NCBI GenBank assembly: GCA_007833815.1
Contig: CP033464.1
Location: 4,024,001 to 4,088,000 of the forward strand
Source of the DNA: Brevibacillus laterosporus
Lineage (GTDB): Bacteria > Bacillota > Bacilli > Brevibacillales > Brevibacillaceae
Length of the DNA stretch: 64,000 nt
Direction: 5' to 3'
A program made the translations under genes and the position numbers. Positions 15,297-64,000 of the stretch are shown in pieces. Below the pieces are notes generated by a model. The model worked only from the letters and a program-made list of their open reading frames with translations. It was not told the DNA's origin and did no database searches. Position 1 is the stretch's first letter, and each line of letters starts with the position of its first letter.

Positions 15297-18200
15297 TTAA
15301 AAATCAAAATCTTCGTTTTCGAAAGCATCCGGTTCATTAGAAATACTTTCTTCTCCTGTAGGTAACCCAAGCTCAAAGCTAGCGATCGACTCGTCTATCT
15401 TAGATGGAATTTGCTTTACTATCTGTAAATACGCTTCTCCTAAGGCTTGAGCCGTCTCTCGTTTGAACAAATTACTAGAATAGTACAGATCAAATAGTAG
15501 ACCATCAGGAGTCTCAATAGCAATGATTGAAAGATCCATTTTGGAGGTATTATCAGAAAATTCATAGGGTATATAAGTTAATTCTTCTGATTCAATTTTT
15601 GCTTGATTCATATTTTGCAGGGTAAACATGGTTTCAAGTAGCGGAGTTCGACTCAAATCTCTCGATATTTGAAGCATTTCCACTAGAGAATCAAAAGGAT
15701 AATCTTGATGATCGAACGCTTGCAGTGTACGCAATTTTACTTCTGCAAAAAATTCCCGAAAAGTCTTGGATGCTTGCGGATAGTTACGCATAGCTAGTGT
15801 GTTAATGAACATTCCTACGACTCTCTCCAAGTCAGCATGCTGTCTCCCCGCGACTGGAGTACCGACAATGATATCTTCCTGTCCCGTACACTTGAACAGT
15901 AATACGTTGTACGCCGCCAGCAAAACCATGTACAAGGTAGATCCACTATCTTGAGCCATGCTGTTGAGTTCATCACTCTCTGCCTTAGACAGCACAAACG
16001 AAATGTGGTCCCCTACGTTGGTACGTACACGAGGACGTGGATAGTCGGTCAGCAATCGCAGAACAGGAAGATCACCAGCAAACGTGTCAAGCCAAAATTG
16101 CTCTTGTTTTTTTATTTGCTCAGAGGTAAAACATAGATTCTGCCAGTGTGTGAAGTCTTTATATTGTATAGGCAACGGCAATAATTCTTGGCCTTTATAG
16201 AATTGAATAAGATCTTCGAGCAAGATAGCCATAGATACACCATCAGAAATGATATGGTGCATATCCATAATTAAGAAGTAACGCTCTGCTTCAAGCTGAT
16301 ATAACCCAACGCGAAACAGTGGAGCCTGTGACAAATCGAACGGTTTTACAAACCCTCGGATCAAATCGGCAATCTGGTCTTCTTGCAACTTGTGTTGACT
16401 CATGATAAATCCTACATTTTTATGTACGCGTTGAACCTGCTCTTCCCCTTGCCATTCAAATGAGGTGCGTAATGCTTCATGACGCTCGATGAGACGAGTA
16501 AGAGCTTTTTCCAAACGTTCTGGGTCGACTGGTCCTTCAATGACTACGCAAGATGGAATGTTATAACTTGTATCCCCTTGGTTTAGTTCGTCGACGATCA
16601 GCATCCGCTTTTGCGCAGCGGAAATTGGATAGTACAACTGCTCTTCCACGGGTATCAATGGAATTTGAGTATAGGCGGAGTCACCAGATACTTCAATCAC
16701 CTGTGCCAACAATTCAATGGTTGGATTATCAAAGATTTGTTTAATCGAAAGGTTCACATTGAGTTCTTTATGAAGGATCGTTAAGAACATCATAGCTTTA
16801 AGGGAGTGGCCACCTATTCGGAAAAAGTTATCGTTTATTCCGACTCTCTCTATGTTCAAAAGACTTTGCCATATTCTTTGCAATTGTGCTTGTAGTGGAG
16901 TCTTAGCAGCTTCATACGGACTAGATGAAGCAAGGCTACCATTTAGCTCAGTCAATGCCAACCGATTGATCTTGCCATTTGGGGTAAGCGGAAATTCAGG
17001 CAATTGCATAAATTGAGACGGCACCATATAATCTGGCAAATGATTTTGAACAAAATTGGAAATGTGATCAAGAGACACTTCATTCTCTGCAACAAAATAG
17101 GCGAACAAATATTTCATTCCATAGTCGTCTATTTTGTCAAGAACGATCACTTCTTTCATACCAGGGTATTGCAACAGCTTGGCTTCGATCTCCCCCAGCT
17201 CGATACGGAATCCTCGAATTTTGACCTGATGATCGATCCTTCCTATGAATTCGAGGTCACCAGTTTCGAGCCAGCGCATCAGATCACCTGTTCTGTATAC
17301 ACGTGGTACGTTTAGATGGGGGGTGTCGACAAAATGCTCGTGTGTTAGCTCCAACGCGTTGAAGTAACCATTTCCCACTCCTTCTCCACCAATACATAAT
17401 TCACCTGGAATGCCGGGCGGAAGCAATTGCATATGCTTGTCTAAAATATAGAGCTTAGCATTATGAACTGGTTTACCGACAGGAATGGGGGTAATCTGAT
17501 CTAATTCTTCATTCCCTAAAATATGGTAACTAGAAATATCTGTGCACTCTGTTGGACCATATGTGTTGGAGAGTTCTGTTTTGAAATGAACAGATTTGAT
17601 CCAAGGTTTTAGTTTGATCATGTTGATTGGTTCACCTCCAAGACTAACGTGTCGGAGGCTTCTCAGTTTAATGAAATCATCGTCCACGTTCCCATGAACC
17701 AACGGATAAAATGCGCTCGGAGCGCAGTTAATCATAGTTATCTGTTCTCTGTCGATCACTTCAGACATATGGCGATAATCATATGGGCCTGGTGAATAGA
17801 CAATCAGGCTTCCCCCTAATAGCAGTACACTAAACAGATTCTTCTGTGCTAAATCAAAACTGCTAGGTGCAATTAACAGGGCCCGTTCATTTTCTGTAAA
17901 CGACAACGCATGGATGTGCCAATACAACAGGTTGACAAACGAATGGTGTTTAATCATGGCTCCTTTAGGATTCCCTGTAGAACCTGATGTATAGAGTACA
18001 TACAAGAGATTTTCAGGATTATAAGGAAGGCTCAAATTATCGGTACGATAACCTGTTTGCGCTAAAATATCTTCGATGACAAACCTATGAGCCTGCTTCA
18101 GATTAGTGCTATCCAAATGTTTTTGTTGAGTTAGAATCACAGTCGTTTGAGAATGTGTAAGTAGATAGTTGATTCGTTCCGCTGGATAATCCGGGTCCAC

Positions 18201-19253
18201 CTGTAGATATGTAGCTCCCGATTTGATAATACCAAGGATACCAATAAGTAATTCAAGGGAACGTTCCACCATAAAACCAACAATGGTACCTTCCCCCACC
18301 GCTTGTCCACGTAAGAACCATGCTACATGGTTCGCACGCTCGTTTAATTCACGATAGGTCAATTGTTGTCCTTCGAATACAACTGCAATCCTATCAGGCG
18401 TACGCTCTGCCTGCTCTTCGAAAAGCTGGGAGACCGATTTATGACGTGGATAATCAAAGCTACTCAGATTAAAATCAGACAGTAATTGTTGTTTCTCAGC
18501 TTCACGTAAGAATGAAACGTCCATTAGACTTTTGTCAGGCTCTTTAGTCACTTCGGTAAGATAGTTATCCAGATGATGAACAATCATTTGCATCCGAGTT
18601 TCACTATACAGACTAGCATTATATTCCAGGGTGAGATGCAGGTTATCCTTATGAGTAGAAAAGACGAACAGCGAGTCAGCTTTTATATGATCTACGCTAT
18701 CTTTCGCATGGATGCCTTCTAGCATAACGCTTGTATTGCACAGTGGATATATACCATCTTCAACCTGTAAACCAAGATTTTTCATCAATAGGTGGAACGG
18801 ATAGTTAGAATTTTGACTTGCTTCATTGACGTTTTTGCTCATTTGCATTAGTAAATGTTTAAAAGTCATTTCTCTGCGTTGAACCTGAACGCGCAGTGGT
18901 AGTAATGTATTTACCATCTTCATTTCTTTCTTTTGATTAAACACAGGCATGCTAAATACAATGTCATCTGCTTCCGTATAACGTGAAAGCAAGTCTGCGA
19001 GAGCGGTCGCAAGGATAATGAATATCGCGTATGGAGACTGATTTCCAATGGTTCGAATTTTTTCTGTGGTCTCTAACGTGAACGAATGAGTGATGACTCC
19101 CTTTTCGTAGGAATCTAAGGATGTTCGCGAATATTCGATGGGAAACGTAGAGAGCACACTGATTCCCTTCATTTGGTCCAGCCAGTATACTTCTTCTTTT
19201 TCTACCTTTTTGCTTGAGAGTAAGAGATTTTCTGATATTTTGCTGGTCGTCAT
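15297..19253 (-). CDS. NRPS: half-C (C-lobe) - A - PCP - C, with F-x-F tail
   Basis: A 1318-aa megasynthase subunit. Residues 1-240 align only with the C-terminal lobe of a condensation domain: they start at the inter-lobe linker (EEVYWLDQMKG) and lack HHxxxDG. The A domain follows (about 260-760): TSGSTGNPKG near 424, NTYGPTECTD, YRTGDL, VKIRGFRIELGEIE and NGKINR. Pocket residues read D-L-K-N-S-G-T-D-I, which I cannot assign to an amino acid. PCP has GGHSLKA near 818. The C domain (about 868-1290) has intact MHHIISDG near 1004. The C-terminus is acidic and ends ENEDFDF. It is the last gene of the operon, yet ends in a C domain rather than a thioesterase, so it probably donates to another subunit and gene order is not assembly order. 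GGAGG precedes the ATG. Confidence 0.93.
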   Translation of the reverse strand: MTTSKISENLLLSSKKVEKEEVYWLDQMKGISVLSTFPIEYSRTSLDSYEKGVITHSFTLETTEKIRTIGNQSPYAIFIILATALADLLSRYTEADDIVFSMPVFNQKKEMKMVNTLLPLRVQVQRREMTFKHLLMQMSKNVNEASQNSNYPFHLLMKNLGLQVEDGIYPLCNTSVMLEGIHAKDSVDHIKADSLFVFSTHKDNLHLTLEYNASLYSETRMQMIVHHLDNYLTEVTKEPDKSLMDVSFLREAEKQQLLSDFNLSSFDYPRHKSVSQLFEEQAERTPDRIAVVFEGQQLTYRELNERANHVAWFLRGQAVGEGTIVGFMVERSLELLIGILGIIKSGATYLQVDPDYPAERINYLLTHSQTTVILTQQKHLDSTNLKQAHRFVIEDILAQTGYRTDNLSLPYNPENLLYVLYTSGSTGNPKGAMIKHHSFVNLLYWHIHALSFTENERALLIAPSSFDLAQKNLFSVLLLGGSLIVYSPGPYDYRHMSEVIDREQITMINCAPSAFYPLVHGNVDDDFIKLRSLRHVSLGGEPINMIKLKPWIKSVHFKTELSNTYGPTECTDISSYHILGNEELDQITPIPVGKPVHNAKLYILDKHMQLLPPGIPGELCIGGEGVGNGYFNALELTHEHFVDTPHLNVPRVYRTGDLMRWLETGDLEFIGRIDHQVKIRGFRIELGEIEAKLLQYPGMKEVIVLDKIDDYGMKYLFAYFVAENEVSLDHISNFVQNHLPDYMVPSQFMQLPEFPLTPNGKINRLALTELNGSLASSSPYEAAKTPLQAQLQRIWQSLLNIERVGINDNFFRIGGHSLKAMMFLTILHKELNVNLSIKQIFDNPTIELLAQVIEVSGDSAYTQIPLIPVEEQLYYPISAAQKRMLIVDELNQGDTSYNIPSCVVIEGPVDPERLEKALTRLIERHEALRTSFEWQGEEQVQRVHKNVGFIMSQHKLQEDQIADLIRGFVKPFDLSQAPLFRVGLYQLEAERYFLIMDMHHIISDGVSMAILLEDLIQFYKGQELLPLPIQYKDFTHWQNLCFTSEQIKKQEQFWLDTFAGDLPVLRLLTDYPRPRVRTNVGDHISFVLSKAESDELNSMAQDSGSTLYMVLLAAYNVLLFKCTGQEDIIVGTPVAGRQHADLERVVGMFINTLAMRNYPQASKTFREFFAEVKLRTLQAFDHQDYPFDSLVEMLQISRDLSRTPLLETMFTLQNMNQAKIESEELTYIPYEFSDNTSKMDLSIIAIETPDGLLFDLYYSSNLFKRETAQALGEAYLQIVKQIPSKIDESIASFELGLPTGEESISNEPDAFENEDFDF

Positions 19254-19295
19254 GGATTACAGCCTCCTAGATGCGAAAAATAGCCTTTTATTTAA

Positions 19296-20900: not shown

Positions 20901-20921
20901 GCAAATCTCTCCTTTTCATTT

Positions 20922-23900
20922 CTATAAATGCTCTAGATAATCAGCCAACTCTTCAATTGAAAGCGTATCATTCCCCACATCACTTGGAGTAATTTCATTT
21001 TCTTTCTTATTGAGACAATGGTTGATAATTGCAAGCAAATGTTTTTTGTATAAGGTAATAATATTTTGCACTGTGCTGGAATTGTACATTTTTTCGTTAT
21101 ATTCAAAATGTAGACGTAACGTACTATCTTGAATAATACCGACAATTTCAAAATGATACTGTCTCTCCACTTTGTGACTGAGAGTTGGACCTGTATTGAA
21201 TGGTGAGATTTGAAATGTGTCAGTTGAGATATCTTGGTCAAATTGCCCCAAGTAATTGAACATAATCTGGGGCTTCATAATGAGACAACTCGCTTCCTCT
21301 GTTTCAACTGAGGTTAGATAACGTAGAATACCGTAGCCAATTCCCTTATTTGGTACTTTGCGCAAACACTCTTTTGTGTATTTAATTTGATAGGCTACGT
21401 CTTCTTCCTCTTTACTTTCAAGCATTACGGGATAAAGGGAAGTAAACCAGCCAACCGTCCGCGAAATGTCAACATTTTCACTGATTGGTTCCCGCCCATG
21501 TCCCTCTAAATGTATGAGTGTATGATTTTGGCCAGTCCACTCCCTCATTGCAAGAGCAAGAGCCGTCAGTAGAATGTCATTTATCTCGGTATTGTAAGCA
21601 TGGTTAACATCTTTTAATAAATGGTTGGTCTCTTCCGAATTTAGGTGCATGGTCAATGTCCTACTGTCCTGCATTCTATTGTCGGTCACAGTCTGATCTT
21701 GAGGTAACGATACCACCGGCACTTTAGCCAGCTGTTCCCAATAAGAAGATTCCTTTCGTAAGGTTTGACTATTGGCATAGACATGTAGTTCTGTAGACCA
21801 TTCTTTAAAAGAGTCGGTCTTATCTTGGAAGTGAATCGCCTCTCCATTTAGCGCCTGCACGTAGCCACTTGCAAGATCATCAAGCAGAATTCGCCAAGAA
21901 ATTCCATCCACTACAAGATGATGAATGACAATCAACAGATGGTCACCATGATCTGTTTTGAAATGTCCAATCGCCATCAATGGACCTGTGCTAAGATCAA
22001 AACCAGCTTGAATATTAGAGGCTTCGGCTTCGATAATAGCTGGTGTCACATGTTCGCCCCTAAAATCCACCAATGTGTAGTCAAACAGCCTATCGGTAAG
22101 TCCACGGATCTGCTGTATGACTCGCTCCCCTTCTATCATAAAAGTCATACGCAGTGCATCATGGTGTTCAACAAGTCGTGTAAATACTTTTCGGAGCAAT
22201 AACTCGTCCCAGCCTTGTTCATGATGTATCATGACTGCATGATTGTAATGATGGGTATCCGTTAGATTTTGCTGAAAGAACCAATGTTGAATCGGTGTTA
22301 AACGTACGCCCCCCTCAACCAATTGGTTGGTTGTTCGTTTTGTTTTAATTGGTTTAACATACTGCGACAGTTCTCTGATTGTTGGGTATTTGAATAAATC
22401 ATTAATTTGGATTTTGTATTGATATTTTTGAATTAAAGAAGACACTTGTATCGCTCTTATGGAATCTCCACCTAGGGAGAAAAAATTGTCATGGACGCTT
22501 ACTTTGTTGATACCAAGGACTTTTTGCCAAACACTAACTAGTATATCCTCTTTATCATTGGATGCCTCGACATACTCAACTCCAGTGTCTATCAAAGTCC
22601 AATCTACAGGCAAAGCGCGTCGATCTATTTTACCATTTGGTGTTAGAGGCAATTGTTCCAAAGTAGCAAAATAAGCAGGAATCATGTAACCTGGCAAACT
22701 CTCTGCAAGGAAGCTGCGAAGTTGAGCCACGTTTTTACTTCTTTTGTCTGTATTAGGTTTCCAAACCATGTAGGCAATGAGTTGCTTATCACCGTGCTCA
22801 TCCGCTTGAGTAGTAATCGCTACTTCTGCAACATCGGAATGCCTAAGGATCGCTGTTTCAATCTCTCCTAGTTCCATTCGATAGCCACGGATTTTAACCT
22901 GGAAGTCTTTCCGCTCAATAAATTCCAGCGTGCCATCCGCTCGATATCGTCCCAAATCACCTGTTTGGTACAATCGTGAAAGTGGGTCAGAAGAAAATGG
23001 ATTCGGAATAAATTTTTCAAAAGTCAAGCTATCCCGACTCCAGTATCCCTTCACTACACCCCTTCCACCGATATATATTTCACCGATAACACCAATCGGT
23101 AGAACATGGTGGTGTTCATCAAGTATATAAATCTGGGTATTAGCAATCGGTTTCCCAATGTAGGCAATTTGATCTGTGTCGACTACCTCATGCATTGCCG
23201 ACCAAATTGTCGTTTCCGTTGGGCCATACATATTATAGATATTTGCAGTTGTTTTGCTCCGCATCTGTTGCATGAGTGAAGGCGGAAACGCTTCACCACC
23301 TACTAACAAGGTATCAAGTGATTGTAAAAATTGTTGTGAGTTAGGATCAGCCGCAATCATCTTGAGCCTTGACGGTGTAGTTTGCAGCATAGTGATCGGA
23401 CGAATGTATGTCGTAGTTTCTCTAGTTATAGCTTCGAGCTCACTTTTTTTGGCGTATCTATCTTTGAATTGAGCAAGATGATGCAAGCCACGGACAACAG
23501 AAGCATGATCGATACCAAAGTCAAGTAAGCAGGCGATCTCATTAACACCAATATGATAGAGCTGCTCGACCAGTCTGTTGCAACTCTCTGGTGTACCAAG
23601 CAATGTTGCCGTATTCCAATAGCGTTGGAACGCTACTTCGAGAATTTGCTCAATATCCTCCTCTGATACGTTATTAATGTCGAACTCATCTGTGCCGATG
23701 TTAAGGTTTTGTGCTAAATTGCGAATTAAACTGACACTTGATCGCAGATAATCGCAAAACGGTTTTTTTACCTTATCTTGTACGTATTCAATGTCGTCAT
23801 CAATAAAAGTATGCAACATGATTGACACTTTGAAGTGCTTAGGATCGTACCCGTTATCAAGTAGCGTTTCATGATACAGGCGAATGTTTTTCGCTAAATT

Positions 23901-26612: not shown

Positions 26613-26639
26613 ATTTCACCTCTGCTAGTGTGTGAGAAA

Positions 26640-29600
26640 TCACTCTTCTAACAGACTCAGAATATCATCCAAGTCTGACATAGAAAGATTGTTGTCTCCA
26701 AAATCGCTTGGCGTATACTCTTGGGTCTTTTTACTCGTACAGTGACGGATAAGTTCTTGCAGTTGTCCTAAAAAGGTTTCCAATAAATGCTGCATTGTAA
26801 CTCGCGAAAATTCGTTTCTGTCATACTCCACCCAAAATGTCAGTTCTCCATTCTGGACCATACCAGTGAAGATGAGATTATGGGTGCGTTCGTTGGCAGT
26901 GCTGATTGTTCTATCTGGTTGAATGGAAGAAAGCTGAAAAACAGCATCTTCTATACCAGTATCCATTTGCCCGAGATAGTTGAATAAAAGAATCGATTGC
27001 GAATCACCTGACAATGTTTGTTTGTTAATGTCAGTTCCCAGATATTTAAGCAGACCATAACCTATACCTTGATTGGGAATTCTCTTTACGTGCTCTTTTA
27101 TTTCTTTAATTTGCGTCGAGAGGTCTGCATGATGCCTCATGTCCAAAAGAATTGGATACATCGTGGTAAACCAACCGACAGTGCGGGTTATATCCAATTG
27201 ATCGCTCCACTCGTGACGTCCGTGACCCTCGACATCAATGAGGATCTTGTCCATTTGCATCCATGAGCGAAGAGACATACCAAGTCCAGTCAATAGGATG
27301 TCATAAATTTGGGTATTGTAGGTGCGGTGAACCTCTTTTAACAATAACTGAGTATCAGATGCCGAAAGACTTCCGATAAGACGTTCGTTCTCGACCATTT
27401 TTCCCTTTATACCACCGCTACTCACAAAGGAATTTCCCTTTATTTTCTCCCAGTATGCAAGCTCATTTTGTAGCTCAGACGTTTTCACGTATTCTTGTAG
27501 TTGTTGTGACCATGTCAAGTAAGAGTCCGTTTTGTCTGAGAACGTAATAGGCTGATTTTTTACCGCCAACTGGTAACCTAGTTCTAAATCCTCCAACAAA
27601 ATTCGTAACGATACCGTGTCGACAATTAAATGATGGAATGTAAGGAATAAATGGTCACCGTAAGCAGTGTGAAACAAAGCAGCTTTAAACAGCTTGCCGT
27701 TCCACAGATCGAGGCTTGCTTGAAGTTCTCGACAAACGCTTTGGATGACATTCTTCACATCTGTTTCTGGTTTTGATTCACTTGATAAGTCAACAACACG
27801 ACATTCATAGACAGATTGTGTCGTATCCCGAATAGCCTGCACAACATCACTATTTTCCTGACGATATTCCATCCGTAGAGCATCATGATGGATAGTTAGC
27901 TCATCCAAAACTTTAATCAAGCTTTCATAATCAATGGCAGACTCACTAGATAACATCAACGATTGATTAAAATGATGTCTATCTTCCATCGATAGGGCAA
28001 AAAACCAGTGTTGAATAGGCGTCAACGGTACAAGCCCCTGGACAACATCCTGATTGGCCCGATGGTTGATGGGTTGTACATGTGGCCGCAATTCTATAAT
28101 CGTCGGATACTCGAACAAATCTTTAATTTGAAGTTTGTACCCAAGTTTATAAAGCTCAGATACAACCTTCATAGCTTTTATTGAATCACCGCCCAAATCG
28201 ATAAAACGCTCATGAATGCTAATCGTATCTTCTCCAAGTACCTGCTTCCATACAGTGGTGAGAATCTCTTCCTCTTCATCCCGAGCCGCTTCAAACAGTG
28301 TTGATGATACATCGTTTCTGGCCAGCTTGGCGAGTGCTTGACGATCAATTTTGCCATTAGGTTTAAGTGGAAGAGTAGATATCTTGATAAAGAAATGAGG
28401 CACCATATACACGGGCAAATGCTGCATGAGATATTCACGTATTTCATGCGACGACGTCCCTGACCCTGCTTCTTGATTCCAGACTAGATATGCTGAGAGT
28501 TGCATATCTCCTTGATGATCTGGTTGAGCCAACACTACAGCATTAGAGATATCAGGATGTTGGCATAATGTATTTTCGATCTCGCCTAATTCAATGCGGT
28601 ACCCACGTATTTTTACCAAATGATCGGCGCGTCCAAGAAATTGTATGTTTCCATCAGGCAACCATTTCCCTATGTCTCCCGTTTTAAACATTTTTTCGTT
28701 CTCAGTTGCACCATAGGGATTGGATACAAACTTTTCCTGTGTTAGTTCCAAGCGATTCAGATATCCGTTGGCTACTCCCTCACCCGCTATACAAATCTCC
28801 CCCTGCACTCCGATAGGGACCAGCTTTTGATGTTGATCAAGGATATAGATTTGAGTATTTGCGATTGGCTTTCCTATCGTTATGTTTTCGCTCTGTTTAG
28901 TAGCTTGTCTAGGCAACTCATATACGGCCGACCAGATCGTAGTCTCTGTAGGACCATACATGTTAAAAATTCGTGCATTGGTTTTCGTATGTAGTTCAGT
29001 TACATATTGGGCAGGAAATGCTTCGCCACCCACTAATAAAATCCGAAGAGACTGTAATAAGCGTTGTGAGCTAGGAGCGTCCAGCAGCAGCTTAAGTCGG
29101 GACGGTGTGCATTGCATCATTGTAATCGATCCAACATTTGGTAGATCAAAATAGTGATCGTAACCACCAAAAGAATCCTCCTGCTGTTCTGCCAATACTA
29201 GACGAATTCCCCTTGTTATCGTCCATAATAGCTCCAATACAGAAATATCAAATGATATGGTCGTCACTGATAAAAACGTATCTCCCTCTTTAGGTTGTAG
29301 GCTTTCATCCATCCCCATAAAAAAATTACCTACATTAGTATGATTCACCATAACACCTTTAGGATTCCCTGTTGAACCTGACGTATAGATAACATAAGCT
29401 AGGTTGTCAGCGCTATGGATTGACTCCAATGCAGTGGTTGGTTCCTGAGCAATCAAAGCTTGACTCTGATCAAGAAGCACAAGAGAAATATTTTGGCTGT
29501 CATCAGCATTATCATGATCTAAATGGTACAAATAAGCGGATTGTGTAACTACCGCTTTCATCCTGCTATCTTCCATCATATAAGCTATACGCTCAGTTGG

Positions 29601-30650
29601 ATATGTAGGATCAATTGGTACATAAGCTGCTCCTGATTTCAGAACGGCAAGTAAACTAATCACCGCTTGCTCTGTTCTCTCCACCATTACTCCAACACAA
29701 TCATCTGCCTGAACAAAGTCATGACGACGCAAATGGTGCGCAAGCTGATTAGCTCTTTCATCTACCTCTTTGTAGGTAAGCGACTGGTCTTTATACACCA
29801 CAGCAATCCGGTCAGGCGTCTTTTTAACTTGTACTTCCCACCATTCCGAAATGGTTTTTTCACGTGGGAAAGATCTCTCTGTTCGATTAAAATCACAGAT
29901 GATTTGATTACATTCCTCTTTGCTCATTACTTGTAGCTCAGCTACTGGCATAGAAGAACTCTTCATGAAAGTGGCAAACACATTGCAGAGATGCCCGATA
30001 AATTGCCTCATTGTCTCCGAGCTAAATAATGCTTTAGAGTATACAACTTCCCCTGCTAGTTGCTCTTCAGAATAGTGAAAACGGAAAAGAAGGTCCGAAT
30101 TGTTATGTACATCTTTATGAATGTTGTTGAGACTTACTGACACTGGAAAAAGCGGTATGCGCTTATCTTCCGTTAGCAAAGCAAGCTCATCAAGAATTTT
30201 TACCATAGGAATATTTTGATACTGATCTGCTTCCATTACTGATTGCTTCACTTGATTCAAAATGGTACGAAAGGTGTCACTTGATGTCATCTGCGTTCGT
30301 ATGGCAAGTAGTGGGCTCAGGTCTGCTGTGGCATCGTTATGGAACACAGGCATTCCAATGATCAAATCCTCGTAGCCTGTATATTTATAGAGTAAGCAAT
30401 TGATTCCGCTTAAGAGTACCATATAGATGCCGTACTCTGATCCGTTAACCAATTGTACAATCCATTCCCCTACTTCATCCGGAAAAGTAAAGGGTATACT
30501 CATCGTGCCGGTCTCTTTATTCTCACCCCTCGAAAAATCAGGCGGATAAATGGTGATCTGCTCTGCTCCATCCAGCTTTTTCAGCCAGTAACGTCTTTCC
30601 TCTTCTAATTCTCCACTTGAGAGAAGCAGATTTTGTGTAATGCTATCCAT
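26640..30650 (-). CDS. NRPS: half-C (C-lobe) - A(Gly-type) - PCP - E-type domain
   Basis: A 1336-aa subunit. Residues 1-240 are a condensation C-lobe only, starting NLLLSSGELEEERRYWLKKL, with no HHxxxDG. The A domain has TSGSTGNPKG near 428 and NMYGPTETTIW; its pocket reads D-I-L-Q-L-G-M-I-W, the same glycine-type code as the next protein. PCP has GGDSIKAM near 820. The E-type domain (about 873-1303) carries HHLIVDTVSLRIL, where the usual Gly-x-Ser-Trp is changed to Thr-Val-Ser-Leu, and VEGHGRHEW. An epimerase after glycine would have no stereocentre to act on, so it may be non-catalytic or serve as the docking partner. The tail TPSDFGDNNLSMSDLDDIL is a classical COM donor for the next gene, which starts 27 bp downstream. 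Confidence 0.93.
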   Translation of the reverse strand: MDSITQNLLLSSGELEEERRYWLKKLDGAEQITIYPPDFSRGENKETGTMSIPFTFPDEVGEWIVQLVNGSEYGIYMVLLSGINCLLYKYTGYEDLIIGMPVFHNDATADLSPLLAIRTQMTSSDTFRTILNQVKQSVMEADQYQNIPMVKILDELALLTEDKRIPLFPVSVSLNNIHKDVHNNSDLLFRFHYSEEQLAGEVVYSKALFSSETMRQFIGHLCNVFATFMKSSSMPVAELQVMSKEECNQIICDFNRTERSFPREKTISEWWEVQVKKTPDRIAVVYKDQSLTYKEVDERANQLAHHLRRHDFVQADDCVGVMVERTEQAVISLLAVLKSGAAYVPIDPTYPTERIAYMMEDSRMKAVVTQSAYLYHLDHDNADDSQNISLVLLDQSQALIAQEPTTALESIHSADNLAYVIYTSGSTGNPKGVMVNHTNVGNFFMGMDESLQPKEGDTFLSVTTISFDISVLELLWTITRGIRLVLAEQQEDSFGGYDHYFDLPNVGSITMMQCTPSRLKLLLDAPSSQRLLQSLRILLVGGEAFPAQYVTELHTKTNARIFNMYGPTETTIWSAVYELPRQATKQSENITIGKPIANTQIYILDQHQKLVPIGVQGEICIAGEGVANGYLNRLELTQEKFVSNPYGATENEKMFKTGDIGKWLPDGNIQFLGRADHLVKIRGYRIELGEIENTLCQHPDISNAVVLAQPDHQGDMQLSAYLVWNQEAGSGTSSHEIREYLMQHLPVYMVPHFFIKISTLPLKPNGKIDRQALAKLARNDVSSTLFEAARDEEEEILTTVWKQVLGEDTISIHERFIDLGGDSIKAMKVVSELYKLGYKLQIKDLFEYPTIIELRPHVQPINHRANQDVVQGLVPLTPIQHWFFALSMEDRHHFNQSLMLSSESAIDYESLIKVLDELTIHHDALRMEYRQENSDVVQAIRDTTQSVYECRVVDLSSESKPETDVKNVIQSVCRELQASLDLWNGKLFKAALFHTAYGDHLFLTFHHLIVDTVSLRILLEDLELGYQLAVKNQPITFSDKTDSYLTWSQQLQEYVKTSELQNELAYWEKIKGNSFVSSGGIKGKMVENERLIGSLSASDTQLLLKEVHRTYNTQIYDILLTGLGMSLRSWMQMDKILIDVEGHGRHEWSDQLDITRTVGWFTTMYPILLDMRHHADLSTQIKEIKEHVKRIPNQGIGYGLLKYLGTDINKQTLSGDSQSILLFNYLGQMDTGIEDAVFQLSSIQPDRTISTANERTHNLIFTGMVQNGELTFWVEYDRNEFSRVTMQHLLETFLGQLQELIRHCTSKKTQEYTPSDFGDNNLSMSDLDDILSLLEE

Positions 30651-30839
30651 AACTATTTTTTCCTCCTCTCCTACCTTCGTGATTAACCCTGACCAAGCTT
30701 TTCTTCCAGCTTCATCGTAATCACTGTAAAAGTAAGCATGCTAACAATCTATTTGTCTCAAATTCTATATCGAATTCTTCTTCCATACTGACAATCAAGC
30801 TCATATCCGAATAAATTCCCCGTTTTCTCAATCAATCCC

Positions 30840-51931: not shown

Positions 51932-51947
51932 TCAAATGTAATTTTTA

Positions 51948-54900
51948 TTAAAAATGAAAATGTAACTGATCAGAGATATCCATTTCAATCAGATCATAGG
52001 ATTCTGCTATCTCAATATCACATAATCTCTTATCCGTCCCATTTACGATTATAGTAAGTAGCTTGAGGAAGGATTCACCTAAAATGTGTATGGTGCTATC
52101 TGTAAATAATTTATTGGCATATTCAAATTGGAATAGTAATTCATCCTCTGCTTCTATGGTAATTACACTCAGATCAAATTTAGATATGCGGTACTTAAAC
52201 TCAAAACGAGATATAGATAGCTTATCAGTAGCATCATTACCATCAGTGATGTATGGATCCTCTATATTTTGCAGGATAAACATCGTGTCAAATAGAGGAT
52301 TTCTACTTTCATCGTGGGCTGCATCTAACTGCTCCACTAGCGTGTCAAACTGATAGTCCTGATTATCAAAAGCTTGTAATACATGTTCCTTGACTACAAG
52401 TAAGAAATCACCAAAAGTCTGTTGGCTCTCCGATTGCAATCGTATGGCTAATGTATTAACAAACATGCCGACTACGTTTTCAAGATCTGCATGATGCCTA
52501 CCAGCAATCGGTGTTCCAATAATAATATCTTGCTGACGAGCATATTTAGATAGCATCACGTGGTACGCAGCTAGTAGAACCATGTAAAGTGTTGTACCTG
52601 TAGAACTGGCTAAGTTACGCAATCCCAACGTCAGTTCCTTGCTGGCGAAGAACTGAACGTAGTCTCCTTCAAAGCTTTTCACTGACGGACGCGGATAATC
52701 AGTTGGCAAAGCAAGAACAGGTAGTTGACCCGTAAACTGGCTTAACCAATATTTTTCTTGGCGCTGCATTACCTCTGACGTCAGTAGTTTGTTCTGCCAA
52801 GCTGAAAAATCTTTGTATTGAATCCTTTGTTCAGGAATCTGCATTCCCTGATAGAATTGCACAAATTCATCTAATAGGATTGCTATAGATGAGCCATCCA
52901 TGATGATATGATGCATGTCCAAGACAAGCACATGGTATTCTTCCTCCACTGTGACAACTGAAACACGTAGTAGTGGTGCCTTGCTTAAGTCAAAAGGACC
53001 AATAAGTGAATGCACAAAATCGTGGAGCTGTTCGTGTGTTGATGTCCGTTCATTCATTTCTATGTTCAGATTGTCATGCACGTATTGAACAGGCTCTCCT
53101 TTTTCCCATCCAAAGGAAGTGCGAAGAATTTCATGACGTTGAACCAGTTTTTGTAAAGCCTGATGAAGACGTTTTTTGTTAAGTTTTCCTTCAATAATAA
53201 ACATGTTCGGAATGTTATAAGCAGTACTGTCTGGGTCTCGCAAATTTACTATAAACATGCGTTTTTGTGCAGAAGAAAGCTGATAAGTCTCTTGTTTTTG
53301 AACAGGTTGAATCGTCGGGTAATCTTTTTTCGCACTACGTTCTACCAGCTGTGCTAGATCCTTGATGATCGGCCTAATAAAGATTTCGCGTAGCGAGATG
53401 TCCACCTGTAATTCTTTATTTATGCGAGATATAACAGTTGTTGCCTTGAGTGAATGACCACCATTTTCAAAGAAATGATCTTCAATACCGAGTCCGCTTG
53501 TATCAAGTACACTTTCCCAAATAGCAATTATTTTCTCCTCAATAATCGTACGTGGTGCCACGTATTTACTTTCGACTCCGTTACGGTCTGGTTTTGGCAA
53601 AGCCTTGCGATCTACTTTCCCATTTGACGTTAGAGGAAGTCTCTCCATCTTTACAAAAAAGGCTGGAATCATATAGTCAGGTAGCGTGTTTGCTAGATGA
53701 CTTTTCAGATGGTTAATAGGTACATCTTGTTTCAATACAACATATGCGCACAGGCTCTTATTACCACGTGCATCCTCGATATCCATGACAACTGTTTCTA
53801 AAATATTTGGATGGTTGTTAATCTGATTTTCGATCTCTTCCAGTTCAATACGGAAGCCCCGAATTTTTACCTGATAATCTTTGCGTCCAAAAAACTCAAG
53901 TGTTCCATCAGGAAGCCAACGCCCCATGTCACCTGTTTTGTAAAGACGTACTCCTTTATGATCAGCAAATGGATCTTCCATAAACGCTTTCGCGGTTCTT
54001 TCTGAATCCTGCAAGTAGCCTCGTCCAACCCCCAAACCAGACACACAAATTTCGCCTTTAATACCAATCGGACAAAGATTCATCTTTTCATCAACGATGT
54101 AAATCTTAAAATTGTGTAAAGGTTTACCAATAGGTACAATATCGCTTTGAGGCAATTCATCAAGGATATGAATCGTAACATCATCTGATGCCTCACTAGG
54201 ACCATAGGCATTAGCTAAAGGGATATGTGGGAAGAGCTTAAACCATCTAGCTGCCAGACTGCGTTTAATGGCTTCTCCTGTTACACTTACATAGCGGAAA
54301 CAATCCAAAGACAATTTGGTTTCTTCCACATGGTCCAACATAACGGACAATACCGAGGGAACAACTTGGAAAATATTGATACGATCTTGAACAATCTGCT
54401 CTATGCACAAGTTAGGTTCCATTGTCATCTGATTATCATAGATGATAGTAGTCCCACCCAAGGTAATAGATGCAAAAAACTGCCAAACAGAAATGTCAAA
54501 GCAGTGAGAAGCAGTCTGAGCAATGCGAGAGTCTTCACTCAACTGTAGTTGCTTTATCATCATGTGGATATGATTGTTTAACCCAATATGCTCGACCATC
54601 GCGCCTTTTGGCTTACCTGTTGAACCTGATGTGTAGATGATATAGGCAAGATGATTCGGATCAACTACGGCTCTGAGATTATCTTGATTTTCTTGATTGA
54701 TGGCATCCATCTGTTCATCAATACAAATAATTATGCCGTTGTAGGCTTGTGTTATTTCTGGAGTAACAAATTGCGATTTAGTAATAAGCACAGTCGTACT
54801 GGAATCTTCGAGAATACCAGTAATTCGCTGCATTGGATATTCAGGATCGATAGGTATATAAGCCCCACCTGCTTTCCAAATACCAAGAATACTTTCCATC

Positions 54901-57900: not shown

Positions 57901-59711
57901 TTGTCTATCATCACTATCGTTACATCATAGTCTGAAAACTGGTTATAATGTGATTGTTTTGTGATCAACACAGGTATTTGAGAATCCTTGATGATAAAAG
58001 AAATTCGCTCTTCAGGATAGGCAAGATCAATAGGGAGATAAGCAGCACCCGCTTTCAAAATTGCTAGGATGCCTACGATCATCTCTGACGAGCGCTCCAA
58101 ACTAATCCCCACTAGTGTGTCTGGTTGCAATCCTAATCTTTGGAGACGATGAGCCATTTGATTAGACTTCTCATGTAATTGCCGATAAGTAAGCTGGGTA
58201 TCTCCGTCAATAACTGCGATCTGGTCTGGATATCGTCTCATTTGTTCTTCAAATAACTCATGAACAAGTGAATCTGAAGGGAATGGAGTGTTGGTCTCGT
58301 TCCATTCATCAACAAGCAAATTACGCTCAGAATCATTCAAAAGGGAAACATGCCCGATAGCGGTAGTTGGATCAACCATAATATCCTGAAGCATAGTCGT
58401 AAGGTGCTGTGCTAACCGACCAATAGTCTCCTCTTTGAAGCATTCTGCATCAAAAAAGATTGTACCCACTAAAGCTGTCTCTGTATGTGAAACGGCAAGA
58501 ACAAGCTCTGCTTCCATACTCCATGATGAATGATTTATTTCTCCCGTTAAAAATAAAGTCTGAAAGGCAGTGGGCTGATAAACGGAAAACTCTTTTTCCG
58601 TTACGGCAGCTTCCATAGAACGGTGAACACGTCGAATCAATTCGGTGAAGCTAGGGTTACCTGAAAAATCACTATAAATAGGAAGCGGCGAAGCTTCGCT
58701 ATCCTTCCCCAGACTCTCCCATCCGCTTAAAATGTCATTTTCACCTGTATAACGGTGAAGAAGCAACTGCCAAGCACTTAACAGTGTGATAGAGAGAGAA
58801 GTGCCAGCTATTTCTGCTACTTCTGTTAGTCGTTTTTGTTCTTCCAACGAAAGAATAATTTCTGTATTTTTCCAATTTCTTTCAATCTTGGTTGATAATG
58901 AATGATCCACGGGCAACTGTAATCTAGGTACACCAGTAAATGAACCATTCCAATGAGAAAGGAATTGATCCATTCCTTGAAGTGTCTCACCCGTTTTGCT
59001 GGTAATTAGGTGCAATACTACGAATAAACGATTAACTAACTGACCGATCCTCTCTTCACCATACATGTCTTGATGATAGTCGACTTGAAGTGTCAGGCCA
59101 TCATCATGTTTTTTAAAGGTGAACACCACGTCGGCAGTGACCGATTCCAAGCTTGCTTGATCATGAATGGTGTCTAACTGAACGATAGTTCCTATAGAAG
59201 GTCTACTTTTTTCTTCACTTGAAATCCCCATACCCATCAAGTCAACAATCAGTTTGTATGGCAAGTTTTGATGCTTCACTGCTTCTGTTATTGTACGTTT
59301 TAATGAAGGAAGTACCTGTTTCCATGTTAGTTGACTGTCTAAATCGGAACGGATCGGCAAGATATTGGAAAAAGCCTGCTTACCATCCTCCTTTTGTTGA
59401 AAAACAGGCATCCCAACAATAATATCAGAATGCTGTTTGTATTTAGATAAAAGGTACTTTACCCCAGCAAGCAGGAACATGTAGATTCCGTAGTCGGAAT
59501 TGTTACTCATTCTATTGATTATTGCTACTATTTCAGCTGGTATTGGATAACTGACCGAAGTCATGTCCTCTACCTTGGTGGTAAGAGGACGCGTATCAAC
59601 AGGGAAACCACTAACATCAGTGTTTCCTGTCAAGTGTTGAAGCCAGTAGGCACGCTCTTGCTCAAATTGTCCGCTCGCAAGTAAAATATTATGCAAAAAA
59701 TTCGTACTCAT
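51948..59711 (-). CDS. NRPS: half-C - half-C - A - PCP - C - A(Dab-type) - PCP - C, with F-x-F tail
   Basis: A 2587-aa subunit. It begins with two condensation C-lobes in tandem (about 1-245, starting LLASGQFEQERAYWLQHLTG; about 250-470, starting near HWNGSFTG). Neither has HHxxxDG. A1 has TSGSTGTPKG near 634; pocket D-A-F-L-L-G-V-V-F suggests a bulky hydrophobic residue (weak). PCP1 has SGGHSLLA near 1019. C has MHHLIMDGWS near 1217. A2 has TSGSTGKPKG near 1699 and pocket D-I-W-Q-S-T-A-D-D, close to the Dab-type code of the 4302-aa protein. PCP2 has NGGHSLKA near 2082. The terminal C has MHHIIMDGSS near 2268. It ends SDQLHFHF. Upstream genes for diaminobutyrate supply are in the same operon, 32 bp away. 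Confidence 0.93.
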   Translation of the reverse strand: MSTNFLHNILLASGQFEQERAYWLQHLTGNTDVSGFPVDTRPLTTKVEDMTSVSYPIPAEIVAIINRMSNNSDYGIYMFLLAGVKYLLSKYKQHSDIIVGMPVFQQKEDGKQAFSNILPIRSDLDSQLTWKQVLPSLKRTITEAVKHQNLPYKLIVDLMGMGISSEEKSRPSIGTIVQLDTIHDQASLESVTADVVFTFKKHDDGLTLQVDYHQDMYGEERIGQLVNRLFVVLHLITSKTGETLQGMDQFLSHWNGSFTGVPRLQLPVDHSLSTKIERNWKNTEIILSLEEQKRLTEVAEIAGTSLSITLLSAWQLLLHRYTGENDILSGWESLGKDSEASPLPIYSDFSGNPSFTELIRRVHRSMEAAVTEKEFSVYQPTAFQTLFLTGEINHSSWSMEAELVLAVSHTETALVGTIFFDAECFKEETIGRLAQHLTTMLQDIMVDPTTAIGHVSLLNDSERNLLVDEWNETNTPFPSDSLVHELFEEQMRRYPDQIAVIDGDTQLTYRQLHEKSNQMAHRLQRLGLQPDTLVGISLERSSEMIVGILAILKAGAAYLPIDLAYPEERISFIIKDSQIPVLITKQSHYNQFSDYDVTIVMIDNGDLEQEKISRPSSEATSTNLAYVIYTSGSTGTPKGTSILHRGINRLVKNNTYIDLESTDRIGQVSNTSFDAFTFELWGALLHGSTLVIIQPDVVLSPFALQKEINKYGITVLLVTTALFNQYAGENPEMFKDRTILFGGEAADPKWVRVALEKGRPKKLINVYGPAECTVFTTTHHVTQIASDALSVPIGKPIANTQVYILDQYLQVVPIGVPGELYVGGPGLASGYLHRPELTKERFIKNIFSSNEEDRLYKTGDIVRYLPDGTLSFIGRKDDQVKIRGFRIELGEIEAVLGQNPAVRDAVVMMRVDQNDNKQLVAYFTTFQPEAVTISELRSFVVNKMPAHMIPTSFVYLNSLPVTPNGKVDRKALPAPSIERGVSDTPFVEPKTDMEKQLSEFWREILGIDRISITDDFFNSGGHSLLATQLLSRIYHTFSIEISLRMFFENPTIQALGKQLDEIISSGKQSVSVPLVSVSRDNDLVLSYTQQGIWFIEQLEPGSATYNVPVANTLKGKLNIDALERAVNEIIRRHETLRTSFISKDGKPYQVSHPFESIRIPLVDVSDAPSTERHQRIIEMANQDANQPFDLTKCPLVRFILFKKDEESYVFYYTMHHLIMDGWSLQIFTHELSVLYEAFSQGKPSPLPEMQLQYADFAAWQRNWLDGKVMNQQLAYWKKQLGGNLPVLQLPIDRQRPSVASGAGQRDTLVMPTELVNKLHVLCKRQGVTLYMALLTAFKVLLSRYSGETDILVGSPIANRTRLETESMIGFFANTIVLRSQLTDNPTFTDLLKQVREVTLEAFSNQDVPFEKLVEVLQPERTKNITPIFQVMFTLQNTRRTDFKLSDETLIHPEIDRGTSMFDLLFDIAEHPDGLLLVAEYNMDIFFSTTIGRMMEHYQELLESIVAIPEQPISDLNMLTKQEKQQIFYEFNDTKCDFPMDKTVHELFEEQVAQRPNDIVAIHRDQQLTYKALNTRANQMARFIHRTGIKKEEIIAVLLDRSITMMESILGIWKAGGAYIPIDPEYPMQRITGILEDSSTTVLITKSQFVTPEITQAYNGIIICIDEQMDAINQENQDNLRAVVDPNHLAYIIYTSGSTGKPKGAMVEHIGLNNHIHMMIKQLQLSEDSRIAQTASHCFDISVWQFFASITLGGTTIIYDNQMTMEPNLCIEQIVQDRINIFQVVPSVLSVMLDHVEETKLSLDCFRYVSVTGEAIKRSLAARWFKLFPHIPLANAYGPSEASDDVTIHILDELPQSDIVPIGKPLHNFKIYIVDEKMNLCPIGIKGEICVSGLGVGRGYLQDSERTAKAFMEDPFADHKGVRLYKTGDMGRWLPDGTLEFFGRKDYQVKIRGFRIELEEIENQINNHPNILETVVMDIEDARGNKSLCAYVVLKQDVPINHLKSHLANTLPDYMIPAFFVKMERLPLTSNGKVDRKALPKPDRNGVESKYVAPRTIIEEKIIAIWESVLDTSGLGIEDHFFENGGHSLKATTVISRINKELQVDISLREIFIRPIIKDLAQLVERSAKKDYPTIQPVQKQETYQLSSAQKRMFIVNLRDPDSTAYNIPNMFIIEGKLNKKRLHQALQKLVQRHEILRTSFGWEKGEPVQYVHDNLNIEMNERTSTHEQLHDFVHSLIGPFDLSKAPLLRVSVVTVEEEYHVLVLDMHHIIMDGSSIAILLDEFVQFYQGMQIPEQRIQYKDFSAWQNKLLTSEVMQRQEKYWLSQFTGQLPVLALPTDYPRPSVKSFEGDYVQFFASKELTLGLRNLASSTGTTLYMVLLAAYHVMLSKYARQQDIIIGTPIAGRHHADLENVVGMFVNTLAIRLQSESQQTFGDFLLVVKEHVLQAFDNQDYQFDTLVEQLDAAHDESRNPLFDTMFILQNIEDPYITDGNDATDKLSISRFEFKYRISKFDLSVITIEAEDELLFQFEYANKLFTDSTIHILGESFLKLLTIIVNGTDKRLCDIEIAESYDLIEMDISDQLHFHF

Positions 59712-59743
59712 TGGAATCCCCCATTACTTTTTCATGTTATGTA

Positions 59744-60712: not shown

Positions 60713-60749
60713 CTTTAGATTATCTCCTCTCGCTTCTTCTGGATTTCTT

Positions 60750-62030: not shown

Positions 62031-62059
62031 TGAGATTCTCCTCTAGTTAGAATTGAGAG

Positions 62060-64000
62060 TTAGAAATTAAATTCAAAATCTCCCATGACACTTGATGTTT
62101 GTGAAGCTTTCAGTTCCTGCATCTGGACTTGTGACAAGAGCTGCACATCTGGAATCCGCAAACTACTATTGTTTATCTCATGCAAGATATTTACGTAATA
62201 CTCTGCCAGCTTTTTGATCGTTTCTACTTTGAAAAGATTCGTATTAAACTCGAATCGGAAATTTAATTGTTCTTCTTTGGCTTCGGCTAACAAGCTGACA
62301 TCGTACAAGCTTACACCATCGTTTGCATAAGGCATTGACTCGTGCCATTCAAACATTGTGGAAAAAATCGGACTACGTTGAGAACGACCAGCATTAACCT
62401 GAGCGACCACAGTATCAAATGGATAGCGACTGTGTGCACTTGCTGTACTTCTCTTCTCTTTAACGATTGTAAATAACTCCTGAACAGTATTTGCTTCTTC
62501 TACCTTCACTCGCATGCAAAGAATGTTCGTCAATGCTCCTACAATTTCATTGGTAGCTGGATCATCTCGGTGATGAGCATTCATTCCAACGATGATATCA
62601 GTATCAAGCGTAAGTTTGTGCAGCAGAAGGTAATACGCTGACAGCAGATAGGTTTCTAAGGTAATATCTACACGTTTGATTGTTTCCTGAATTGATTTCC
62701 ATAAGACCTCTTCCTCTATGTGAAAAGAAAGAAGGCTTCCTTGATAACTTGGCGTCTTAGAGCGTTGATAATCCGTTGCCAGATTCAAGACAGGAAGGGG
62801 ATTCCTTAATTCTTGTTGCCAGTAAGCTTGAGCTGTTTGATACATGTCACTTTTTTCCCAACTAAGCTGATTTTGTACCCAAGAAATATAGGTACGGGCT
62901 GGTGGAAGAAGAGGTATCTCCTGCTCTTCCTTCAAAGCGTTATATACTCGGACTATTTCGTCAGCAATACGCTCCAAACTCCACTGGTCTCCAATCAGTG
63001 AATGAATAACTAGACCAAAGAGAGTTTGCTTATCTGGCAAACGGTACACGATTGGACGCCATGTTGACTTGGAGAGGTCACACGCTCGAACTCTGGCCTC
63101 TGTTAACTTCGTTCTAGCTAGTTGCCATGCATTTGATTCAAAGGTTAGGTCTTCACATTCAACTTGTACTTCCATAAATGGCAAAATCACCTGTTTTGGT
63201 AGACCATTCTCTTCGCGGAAAATGGTACGCAGAGCCTGATGTTGATAGACAACTGTGTCAACGGCCTTTTGGAGCAGTTCTATGTCAACAGACGTAGGAA
63301 TTTCTTTTTCATAAAGCAAGGTAAGTTCTGTCATAGACGGATTATACGACTGAAGGAAATAGATATGACGCTGCATACCAGTAAGTTCGTAACCTTCCTC
63401 CGTCTTCGTTCTCGCGATAGATGCTACTGTAGATTGCTCAGGGACAGAGGTTTCTTCACTGCCTCCTTCTTGAGCACTAAGATGCGACGCAAGTGCATAG
63501 ATCGTTAAGTTCTGGAATATTTCACTGATCCCAACATTCTTGTTCAGATATTTTTGAATCGAATTAACGATCTTGACGGCAATAATGGAATCGCCCCCGA
63601 GACTAAAGAAATCATCGTAGATATTTATTTCATCAAGACCCAATTCTAAGCAAAATACTTGCGCCAATAATCGCTCATTTTTAGAATAAGTTTCATTGGC
63701 AATACGCCCTAACACTGTTATTTCTGGAAGTGTTTGTGACGTCACTGTGCCTTGTTTCGCACCTTTTGGTTTCCCGGCTTTCTTTAATCTGTCCATAATC
63801 GGTTTTGCCAGATTAAGTGTAAAGCCGCCTTCCATATTACCGTGGTCATTATCATAATTGACTTCCGCAAGCGTTACCCTTTTCACCTGCTTATGCAGAA
63901 CCTGGTGAAAAGCTTGTATCGCATTTTTGGTCGATAAGGACTTGAAGAATCCTGAATCGTGATTAGCTCCATATTCTACAGCCATCCCTACTTCTTTCCA
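62060..64000 (-). CDS. Hybrid PKS/NRPS subunit, C-terminal part: (KR) - PCP - C, with F-x-F tail (5' end off right edge)
   Basis: The frame is open to the right edge (WKEVG precedes the first Met at 63985), so this is the end of a longer protein. The first 70 or so residues (WKEVGMAVEYG... to LSTKNAIQAFHQVL and RVTLAEVNYD) match the C-terminal end of a PKS ketoreductase domain. A carrier protein follows with LGGDSIIAVKIV near residue 130 from the Met, then a condensation domain (about 190-620). Its active-site motif is VIHSLIGDQWS: the second, catalytic His of HHxxxDG is Ser, and the final Gly is Gln. It is therefore probably not an ordinary peptide-bond-forming domain. The tail ends VMGDFEFNF, like three other subunits here. 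Confidence 0.88.
   Translation of the reverse strand, partial: WKEVGMAVEYGANHDSGFFKSLSTKNAIQAFHQVLHKQVKRVTLAEVNYDNDHGNMEGGFTLNLAKPIMDRLKKAGKPKGAKQGTVTSQTLPEITVLGRIANETYSKNERLLAQVFCLELGLDEINIYDDFFSLGGDSIIAVKIVNSIQKYLNKNVGISEIFQNLTIYALASHLSAQEGGSEETSVPEQSTVASIARTKTEEGYELTGMQRHIYFLQSYNPSMTELTLLYEKEIPTSVDIELLQKAVDTVVYQHQALRTIFREENGLPKQVILPFMEVQVECEDLTFESNAWQLARTKLTEARVRACDLSKSTWRPIVYRLPDKQTLFGLVIHSLIGDQWSLERIADEIVRVYNALKEEQEIPLLPPARTYISWVQNQLSWEKSDMYQTAQAYWQQELRNPLPVLNLATDYQRSKTPSYQGSLLSFHIEEEVLWKSIQETIKRVDITLETYLLSAYYLLLHKLTLDTDIIVGMNAHHRDDPATNEIVGALTNILCMRVKVEEANTVQELFTIVKEKRSTASAHSRYPFDTVVAQVNAGRSQRSPIFSTMFEWHESMPYANDGVSLYDVSLLAEAKEEQLNFRFEFNTNLFKVETIKKLAEYYVNILHEINNSSLRIPDVQLLSQVQMQELKASQTSSVMGDFEFNF

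Follow-up and report, generated by a model that had tools for sequence, protein, structure and literature searches.

A C-terminal phenylalanine tail and an N-terminal half condensation domain as a probable docking pair of split nonribosomal peptide synthetase modules in Bacilli

Introduction

Docking between subunits decides which peptide a nonribosomal peptide synthetase (NRPS) assembly line makes and is a main handle for recombining such lines. Here we analysed a stretch of 64,000 nt of Brevibacillus laterosporus (contig CP033464.1, positions 4,024,001 to 4,088,000; hereafter the window). It lies inside a large cluster of NRPS and polyketide synthase (PKS) genes on the minus strand, the first NRPS-related genes of which lie at most about 10 kb past the window end. 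We describe two features of its subunits, a short tail rich in phenylalanine behind C-terminal condensation (C) domains and an N-terminal C-lobe without its N-lobe (hereafter half-C), and ask whether they may form a docking pair.

Subunit ends and starts in the window

Open reading frames (ORFs) are cited by their lowest window coordinate, and domains as C, adenylation (A), thiolation (T), epimerization (E), ketosynthase (KS), dehydratase (DH) and ketoreductase (KR). The tails and the C domains in front of them are:

62063..62083, minus strand: candidate donor tail GDFEFNF-COOH of ORF 62060 (...VMGDFEFNF), a KS-DH-KR-T-C subunit; stop codon at 62060-62062
62111..63397, minus strand: full C domain preceding the GDFEFNF tail (Pfam), ending 16 residues before the C-terminus
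51951..51971, minus strand: candidate donor tail DQLHFHF-COOH of ORF 51948 (...ISDQLHFHF; ORF translation)
52005..53297, minus strand: full C domain preceding the DQLHFHF tail (Pfam), ending 18 residues before the C-terminus
30901..30921, minus strand: candidate donor tail KEIDFNF-COOH of ORF 30898 (...IQKEIDFNF; ORF translation)
30958..32229, minus strand: full C domain preceding the KEIDFNF tail (Pfam), ending 19 residues before the C-terminus
15300..15320, minus strand: candidate donor tail ENEDFDF-COOH of ORF 15297 (...FENEDFDF; ORF translation)
15369..16634, minus strand: full C domain preceding the ENEDFDF tail (Pfam), ending 23 residues before the C-terminus

The half-C domains, with the number of signature residues defined below, are:

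58977..59711, minus strand: N-terminal half-C (C-lobe only) of ORF 51948, candidate receiver; signature 12/12
29901..30650, minus strand: N-terminal half-C of ORF 26640, candidate receiver; signature 12/12
18483..19253, minus strand: N-terminal half-C of ORF 15297, candidate receiver; signature 11/12
58317..58973, minus strand: second, internal half-C of ORF 51948, between the first half-C and the A domain; signature 0/12, 3/12 columns being gaps

Two E-ended subunits provide a contrast; COM donors are helical tails of the TPSD...L..EEL type behind an E domain:

26643..26714, minus strand: COM-type tail ...TPSDFGDNNLSMSDLDDILSLLEE of the E-ended ORF 26640 (ORF translation)
20925..20996, minus strand: COM-type tail ...TPSDVGNDTLSIEELADYLEHL of the E-ended ORF 20922 (ORF translation)

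An earlier sequence-only reading of the window had proposed that F-x-F tails mark the four subunits ending in a full C domain and could dock onto the half-C starts of three receiving subunits. The four ends FEFNF, HFHF, IDFNF and DFDF were borne out by ORF translations and Pfam, and the Phe tail occurs in 0/3 other NRPS subunits that end within the window (26640 and 20922, E-type; 43915, C-lobe only). The half-C starts of ORFs 15297, 26640 and 51948 are likewise real; in these three proteins Pfam finds Condensation, AMP-binding, AMP-binding_C and PP-binding domains only. The half-Cs of ORFs 26640 and 51948 are 31 and 30% identical to that of 15297. ORF 62060 had been taken for a protein of 641 aa starting at 63985, which was mistaken: its open frame comprises 2031 aa and extends past the window into the KS-DH-KR-T-C subunit. 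With four tails facing three half-C starts, there is one tail too many for the cluster. A chance origin of the four tails was rejected, FxF ending just 4/563 background ORFs (at least 150 aa, no NRPS domain match, from the fetched loci). In ORF 51948 the internal half-C immediately follows the N-terminal one and does not bear the receiver signature.

Tails and half-C starts across genomes

A PF00668 search of the source genome gave 111 matches. Among them, four further C-ended subunits carry a tail, FTFTF (L042), IQFDF (L043), FIFEW (L044) and GDFNF (L045; L numbers are our handles for fetched loci), and behind each of them the next NRPS gene starts with a half-C. The tail is absent from C-ended proteins of this genome that have no half-C start behind them, namely L048 (next gene starting with A), L050 (a lone C domain), L109 (last gene) and probably L049. 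The idea that every C-ended subunit has a tail was dropped on account of L048, L050 and L109.

Profile A2, built from eight half-Cs, matched about 34 of 399 Bacilli genomes in 15 of 145 genera (E 1e-52), an approximate count given that at most six candidates were scored per genome and that the weakest matches include full C domains (L099). Another cut admitted many full C domains and was not used for counting. In one further family 88/344 genomes matched (E 1e-57), and in a phylum-level draw 2/398 did so at a strict cut; the in-depth search covered Bacilli. The class search and the further family each supplied 40 regions, which we opened and pooled with the source-genome loci. In this pool, a half-C subunit comes next after 82 C-ended subunits; these provide 80 unique tails, a donor count conditional on the choice of regions by half-C similarity.

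The strict FxF form ends 62 of the 80 unique tails, [FLVI]xF 73 and a terminal Phe 74; after clustering at 60% identity the figures are 52, 57 and 58 of 63 clusters. Over these clusters, position -5 is I/V in 44, -4 is E/D in 48, -3 is F in 53 and -1 is F in 58, and the tail ends 6-18 residues beyond the final C-model column. Among 95 other NRPS ends in the pooled loci, FxF was found in 0/29 E-ends, 0/24 T-ends and 0/42 remaining ends, while [FLVI]xF occurred in 1/42 of the latter. The tail is thus nearly confined to C-ended subunits across the Bacilli loci, as had been noticed in the window. The F-x-F motif itself stood as the commonest form, but 18/80 tails lack it, and the strict rule was replaced by a wider one, hydrophobic-x-F at a free C-terminus (e.g. 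IQLNF, IELDF, IDIIF).

Co-occurrence of tail and half-C in other genomes had been set beforehand as one of two tests of the proposal, and it was found: a C-ended subunit lies upstream of 82/90 half-C starts versus 2/26 full-C starts (ORFs with an upstream NRPS ORF in the same stretch). The eight misses are L051, L077, L078, L079, L102, L138, L148 and window ORF 15297; L078 is a fragment counted as a half-C start, and L102 is the same gene as L060. Twenty further regions yielded 14 pairs, several of them close kin of earlier ones, and in every pair the upstream subunit is C-ended. Thirteen of these tails end in hydrophobic-x-[FLI], and that of L179 has one extra residue behind. The other six regions hold first-gene polymyxin-type half-Cs without an upstream NRPS ORF. 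The two ends hence sit on successive subunits, as expected of a docking pair, both in these 82/90 cases and in the polymyxin-type order described below.

Anatomy and signature of the half-C

The half-C comprises about 245 aa and aligns to columns ~167-433 of the 433-column C model, making it a homologue of the PF00668 C-lobe. The window half-Cs begin at columns 167-170 and lack the N-lobe with its HHxxxDG motif; judged from this alignment, they are therefore not working C domains.

We compared 239 full C domains from the same loci with 83 of the 90 half-Cs, namely those that lie in the window or behind a C-ended ORF and have an A domain in view. Columns flagged between 350 and 363, the latch, are gapped in 60-90% of the half-Cs, and columns 275-276 of the floor loop in about 70%, both elements being assigned by position. 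Latch and floor loop are described in a passage of PMC11186497 as the two cross-over elements between the C-domain lobes. Residues conserved in half-Cs and not in full C-lobes are S232, G243, V/I/L244, K/R295, V339, I344, H345, F372 and F374. A 12-column signature averages 9.95 over the half-Cs and 1.76 over the full C domains, the columns having been picked on the same sequences as were scored. The signature is 0 in L060 (5 of 12 columns unaligned) and in the internal half-C of ORF 51948 (3 of 12 unaligned). Given the conserved residues of its own, the half-C does not resemble a decaying C domain. At columns 372-374 the half-C itself has a conserved F-x-F strand, with 87% and 82% Phe; full C-lobes mostly carry L and V/A there. 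No stand-alone half-C was seen among 48 PDB sequences matching the half-C profile, which by name and range belong to C, Cy or kindred domains within longer chains, NRPS with C domains and their kin.

Pairing of tail position -3 with half-C column 298

Column 298 sits in the helix TFKxLL of the half-C. In the first 82 pairs, Phe298 occurs with Phe at tail position -3 in 0/66 and with an aliphatic residue in 15/16, after two tails that run one residue longer had been put in register. The 14 later pairs gave 0/10 and 2/4, and hence 0/76 and 17/20 in combination; two polymyxin-type pairs from two genomes, in which an aliphatic -3 meets Leu298, bring the latter to 17/22. Both sides switch between successive junctions of one assembly line in L141 (LEFHF with L298, IELHL with F298) and in L062 (VDFVF with L298, IELIF with F298). 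Well-supported branches of the half-C tree allow just two independent changes of tail type, and these are in step in almost every pairing. By mutual information, tail -5 with column 193 ranks strongest and -3 with 298 second; of the 20 pairs listed the latter has the highest z, in shuffles that ignore kinship. The -3/298 pair behaves like a size swap and may be read as a lead for a contact, not as proof of one.

Tails without I/V at -5 (e.g. DFDDFNF, DLGDFEF) mostly face Arg/Lys at half-C column 235, in cases not independent enough on the tree.

Known assembly lines and subunit order

Three iturin-type genomes have ORFs of 3981-3992 aa, followed by open frames of 5365-5377 and 2615-2632 aa, sizes that we take to match the iturin/mycosubtilin family. 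Tail and half-C are present at both junctions in all three, with the tails IQLNF and IELDF or IELNF. In one genome the first subunit reads acyl ligase, ACP, KS, aminotransferase, C, PCP, C, A, PCP, C. This agrees with how ItuA is described in a passage of PMC11751314, save for the last C, which is not placed there.

In the polymyxin-type clusters an ORF of about 5020 aa (PmxA-sized) begins with the half-C and has no NRPS ORF for up to 17 kb upstream; it is preceded by what is by eye an aminotransferase-like gene. In polymyxin, PmxE (6312 aa) acts first and its gene comes last, behind those for PmxA (5010 aa) and PmxB (1102 aa), the subunit order being pmxE-pmxA-pmxB (passages of PMC3708778). 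A PmxE-sized ORF far downstream, 6328 aa in one genome, ends in a full C domain plus IDIIF in 3/3 genomes. In a test that might have gone the other way, the donor tail is found on the subunit on which this order demands it, which fits the pairing of tail and half-C. From size, order and domains we infer that these clusters are polymyxin synthetases.

Two junctions in the window are chemically odd if neighbours are joined: ORF 51948 (HFHF, C-ended) precedes 43915, a subunit with a full-C start, and ORF 15297 (half-C, A) follows the E-ended 20922. Because of these two junctions, and with four tails for three half-Cs, the partners in the window cannot all be neighbours. The rule that the partner is always the adjacent gene was discarded, contradicted as it is by 51948, 15297 and the polymyxin type. 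When C-lobe ends are joined to KS peptides (see below), tails to half-Cs and COM ends to full C domains, one possible order in which no matching neighbour pair is broken up would be 43915 > 30898 > 26640 > 20922 > (L010 ORF 4657) > 62060 > 51948 > 15297, where L010 ORF 4657 is the first NRPS gene of the cluster. It leaves one unused tail at the end, and other orders also fit the end classes.

A probable docking pair for modules cut between C and A, and its alternatives

The anatomy of the half-C, its co-occurrence with the tail, the residue conservation, the loss of the latch and part of the floor loop, the -3/298 pattern and the agreement with the polymyxin-type order are observations; on the strength of these, we consider it highly probable that tail and half-C are a matched docking pair for a module cut between C and A. 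On sequence comparison, the docking interpretation of the earlier reading is thereby supported. The upstream subunit keeps its whole catalytic C domain and ends in a free, strand-like peptide with the consensus [DE][DES][IV][DE]-F-x-F-COOH, and the downstream subunit opens with a C-lobe copy of about 245 aa, not catalytic, ahead of its A domain. The peptide would bind the half-C as ligand to receptor, probably on the face bared by the missing N-lobe, with a putative site close to the N-termini of the helices at model columns 231-244 and 293-305. In C-A structures, C-lobe and A domain normally pack together; the half-C may pack on A in the same way, and the upstream C domain would thereby be held beside the A-T pair whose acceptor it serves.

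Several observations weigh against this interpretation, besides the choice of regions by half-C similarity and of signature columns on the scored sequences. The half-C starts of L054 and L060 in the source genome have no C-ended subunit upstream; of the two, L054 is the one that weighs against the pairing. No donor was found in the fetched stretches for the signature-bearing half-Cs of L054, L093 and L097, nor for those of L134, L145 and L148 after more of their contigs had been fetched (L209 for L134; L207 and L208 for L145; L201-L204 for L148; stretches, not whole genomes), and a half-C-like start in L207 follows an ORF without C-end or tail. C-ended subunits that do not directly precede a half-C still have FxF in 5/10 and [FLVI]xF in 6/10; these ten include window ORFs 51948 and 15297, L112 (a second copy of the L045 gene), L051 and L155, and in the last two the half-C is found one gene further on. 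The -3/298 link is not significant by a sign test on the half-C tree, because there are just two switches on well-supported branches, and three lineages pair an aliphatic -3 with Leu298 (IEISI, LELMF and the polymyxin-type IDIIF). Finally, on contact, the second test set by the earlier reading, an AlphaFold model of a read-through chain of tail and half-C left the tail undocked, at a pLDDT of about 31 and without a strand; with 779 residues of out-of-frame sequence between the partners the test is weak, but it gives no support. A second read-through model also left the peptide undocked.

The rule that an aliphatic -3 always goes with Phe298 was given up in view of IEISI, LELMF and IDIIF. The orphan N-terminal half-Cs (L054, 4064-10555, plus strand; L093; L097; L134; L145; L148) have 8-11 of the 12 signature residues, and their donors are predicted to lie elsewhere. 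L060 (4488-11543, minus strand) has a half-C start without signature and no upstream NRPS subunit, and is perhaps a true remnant.

The half-C might instead be a structural cap for the A domain, a relic of a gene split in a duplicated C, with the tail a frayed C-A linker that binds nothing. Its place where the C-A platform would be, the normal packing of C-lobe and A, and the half-Cs for which no donor was found agree with this; but [IV][DE]FxF would hardly persist at the free C-terminus in most of the 63 tail clusters if the linker were frayed, a mere cap would not gain conserved residues absent from full C-lobes, and L060, the start with no upstream NRPS subunit, has none of the signature residues (7/12 columns filled). 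We regard such a cap as unlikely. That the tail acts in cis, sealing the edge of its own C-terminal C domain with no relation to the half-C, appears very unlikely: the chain does end at a near-constant 6-18 residues past the C model, but C-ended proteins without a half-C start behind them (L048, L050, L109) lack the tail, and column 298 of the half-C tracks tail position -3.

We give equally little credence to a co-inheritance of tail and half-C from one ancestral split without any interaction, which would make the -3/298 pattern a trace of shared ancestry. It is in line with the two supported independent switches on the tree and with the restriction of all finds to Bacilli, the sole class searched in depth; against it stand half-Cs that retain tail and signature down to about 25-30% identity, and pairs at two or more junctions of one line and across genes that are out of order. 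Docking of the tail onto the half-C remains our preferred reading, and the pair is most likely a new docking class for C/A-split modules.

C-terminal C-lobes in front of ketosynthase subunits

Subunits ending in a bare C-lobe precede KS-first subunits with an N-terminal peptide, e.g. LLDFHSFKLDGL, MLRLSDLNLDEL or FDDIHLNF. This mirror arrangement is present in the window, in L010 (4657-8445 with 1-4632) and in L157-L176; in the window it consists of:

43918..44559, minus strand: C-terminal C-lobe of ORF 43915 (...IIENYQTS), presumed receptor (C-model alignment)
43747..43806, minus strand: N-terminal peptide LLDFHSFKLDGLIKEN before the KS of ORF 30898, presumed ligand (ORF translation)

Profile A6 of this system matched 15/250 Bacilli. 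By eye, the peptide is on the following KS subunit in 18/20 opened loci, some of which are orthologues of the window genes; in L174 it is on an A-first subunit, and L158 has no following KS. No such peptide was seen by eye in 12 KS-first ORFs without a preceding C-lobe. We lean slightly towards the view that C-lobes have been recruited as docking receptors both ways, the N-terminal one taking the [IV][DE]FxF tail and the C-terminal one an LxFxxFxL-like peptide, where the latter would serve the handover from a peptide module to a ketosynthase. If so, both systems would be an unrecognised connector code in polymyxin and iturin lines and in many unnamed lines of Bacilli, one that predicts subunit order where gene order fails.

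Other genes of the cluster

A luciferase-like monooxygenase domain lies within an A domain of ORF 20922-26612 (residues 705-1024, Pfam). A beta-lactamase-fold protein (PF00144, window 19296-20900) is encoded between the last two NRPS genes and is a possible release enzyme. The cluster also encodes ornithine-cyclodeaminase-like and PALP enzymes (window 59744-60712 and L010 9755-10699), reminiscent of the pair that makes 2,3-diaminopropionate; a protein at L047 10057-11028 begins like the ornithine-cyclodeaminase-like enzyme of the cluster.

Comparison with known docking systems

The review PMC9113145 lists COM, PAX, bHD-SLiM and PKS docking classes. A close resemblance is to the bHD-SLiM systems (EpoB, TubC, Kj12, Bamb_5915), in which a short, disordered C-terminal donor peptide meets a structured N-terminal receptor; the tails likewise are short linear motifs (SLiMs) at the C-terminus of the donor. 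The bHD-SLiM peptide is bound as an added strand, and strand addition is plausible for tail and half-C too. The bHD receptor, however, is an appended alpha-beta-beta-alpha-alpha domain found mainly at PCP/C or PCP/Cy junctions, whereas here it would be a C-lobe of 245 aa at a C/A junction.

COM pairs (SrfAB/SrfAC, TycA/TycB) share with the present pair a receptor of condensation-domain fold and a C-terminal tail as donor. The COM acceptor is formed by the N-terminal end together with strands of an intact C domain, its donor is helical and the junction is E/C, while here the receiver lacks an N-lobe and donors finish with a C domain followed mostly by [IV][DE]FxF. The E-ended window subunits do have the COM type, so that COM-like ends and the tail/half-C pair occur side by side in one cluster. 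The suggestion of the sequence-only reading that the system is distinct from COM thus holds for donor motif, C-end and receiver. PAX three-helix domains, the four-helix bundles of trans-AT PKS and DHD also join subunits end to end, by other folds.

An incomplete condensation domain is also found in the palmerolide PKS-NRPS, where a terminal truncated C of 133 aa is described in a passage of PMC8739492; that one is C-terminal, keeps much of the HHxxxDG part and is proposed to act in product release, whereas the half-C is N-terminal and lacks that part. Published subunits of the polymyxin, pelgipeptin and iturin-family synthetases are split at the same place as ours: in passages of PMC3708778 and PMC3479019, PmxB and PlpF are given as A-T-TE, PlpE as starting with A-T and ending in C, and PlpD as C-A-T-C. 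The passages on these synthetases make no mention of a half-C or tail. No paper on half-C docking was found among the matches listed in the open-access literature, by titles and abstract starts.

A connector for the C/A cut would explain the junctions that published annotations show as a terminal C domain followed by an A start in polymyxin, pelgipeptin and probably iturin lines, and would provide order predictions for shuffled genes as well as a compact tag-receptor pair. Judged by sequence features, the pair would work like SLiM docking, with a receptor fold, a junction type and a donor motif that differ from those of COM and bHD.

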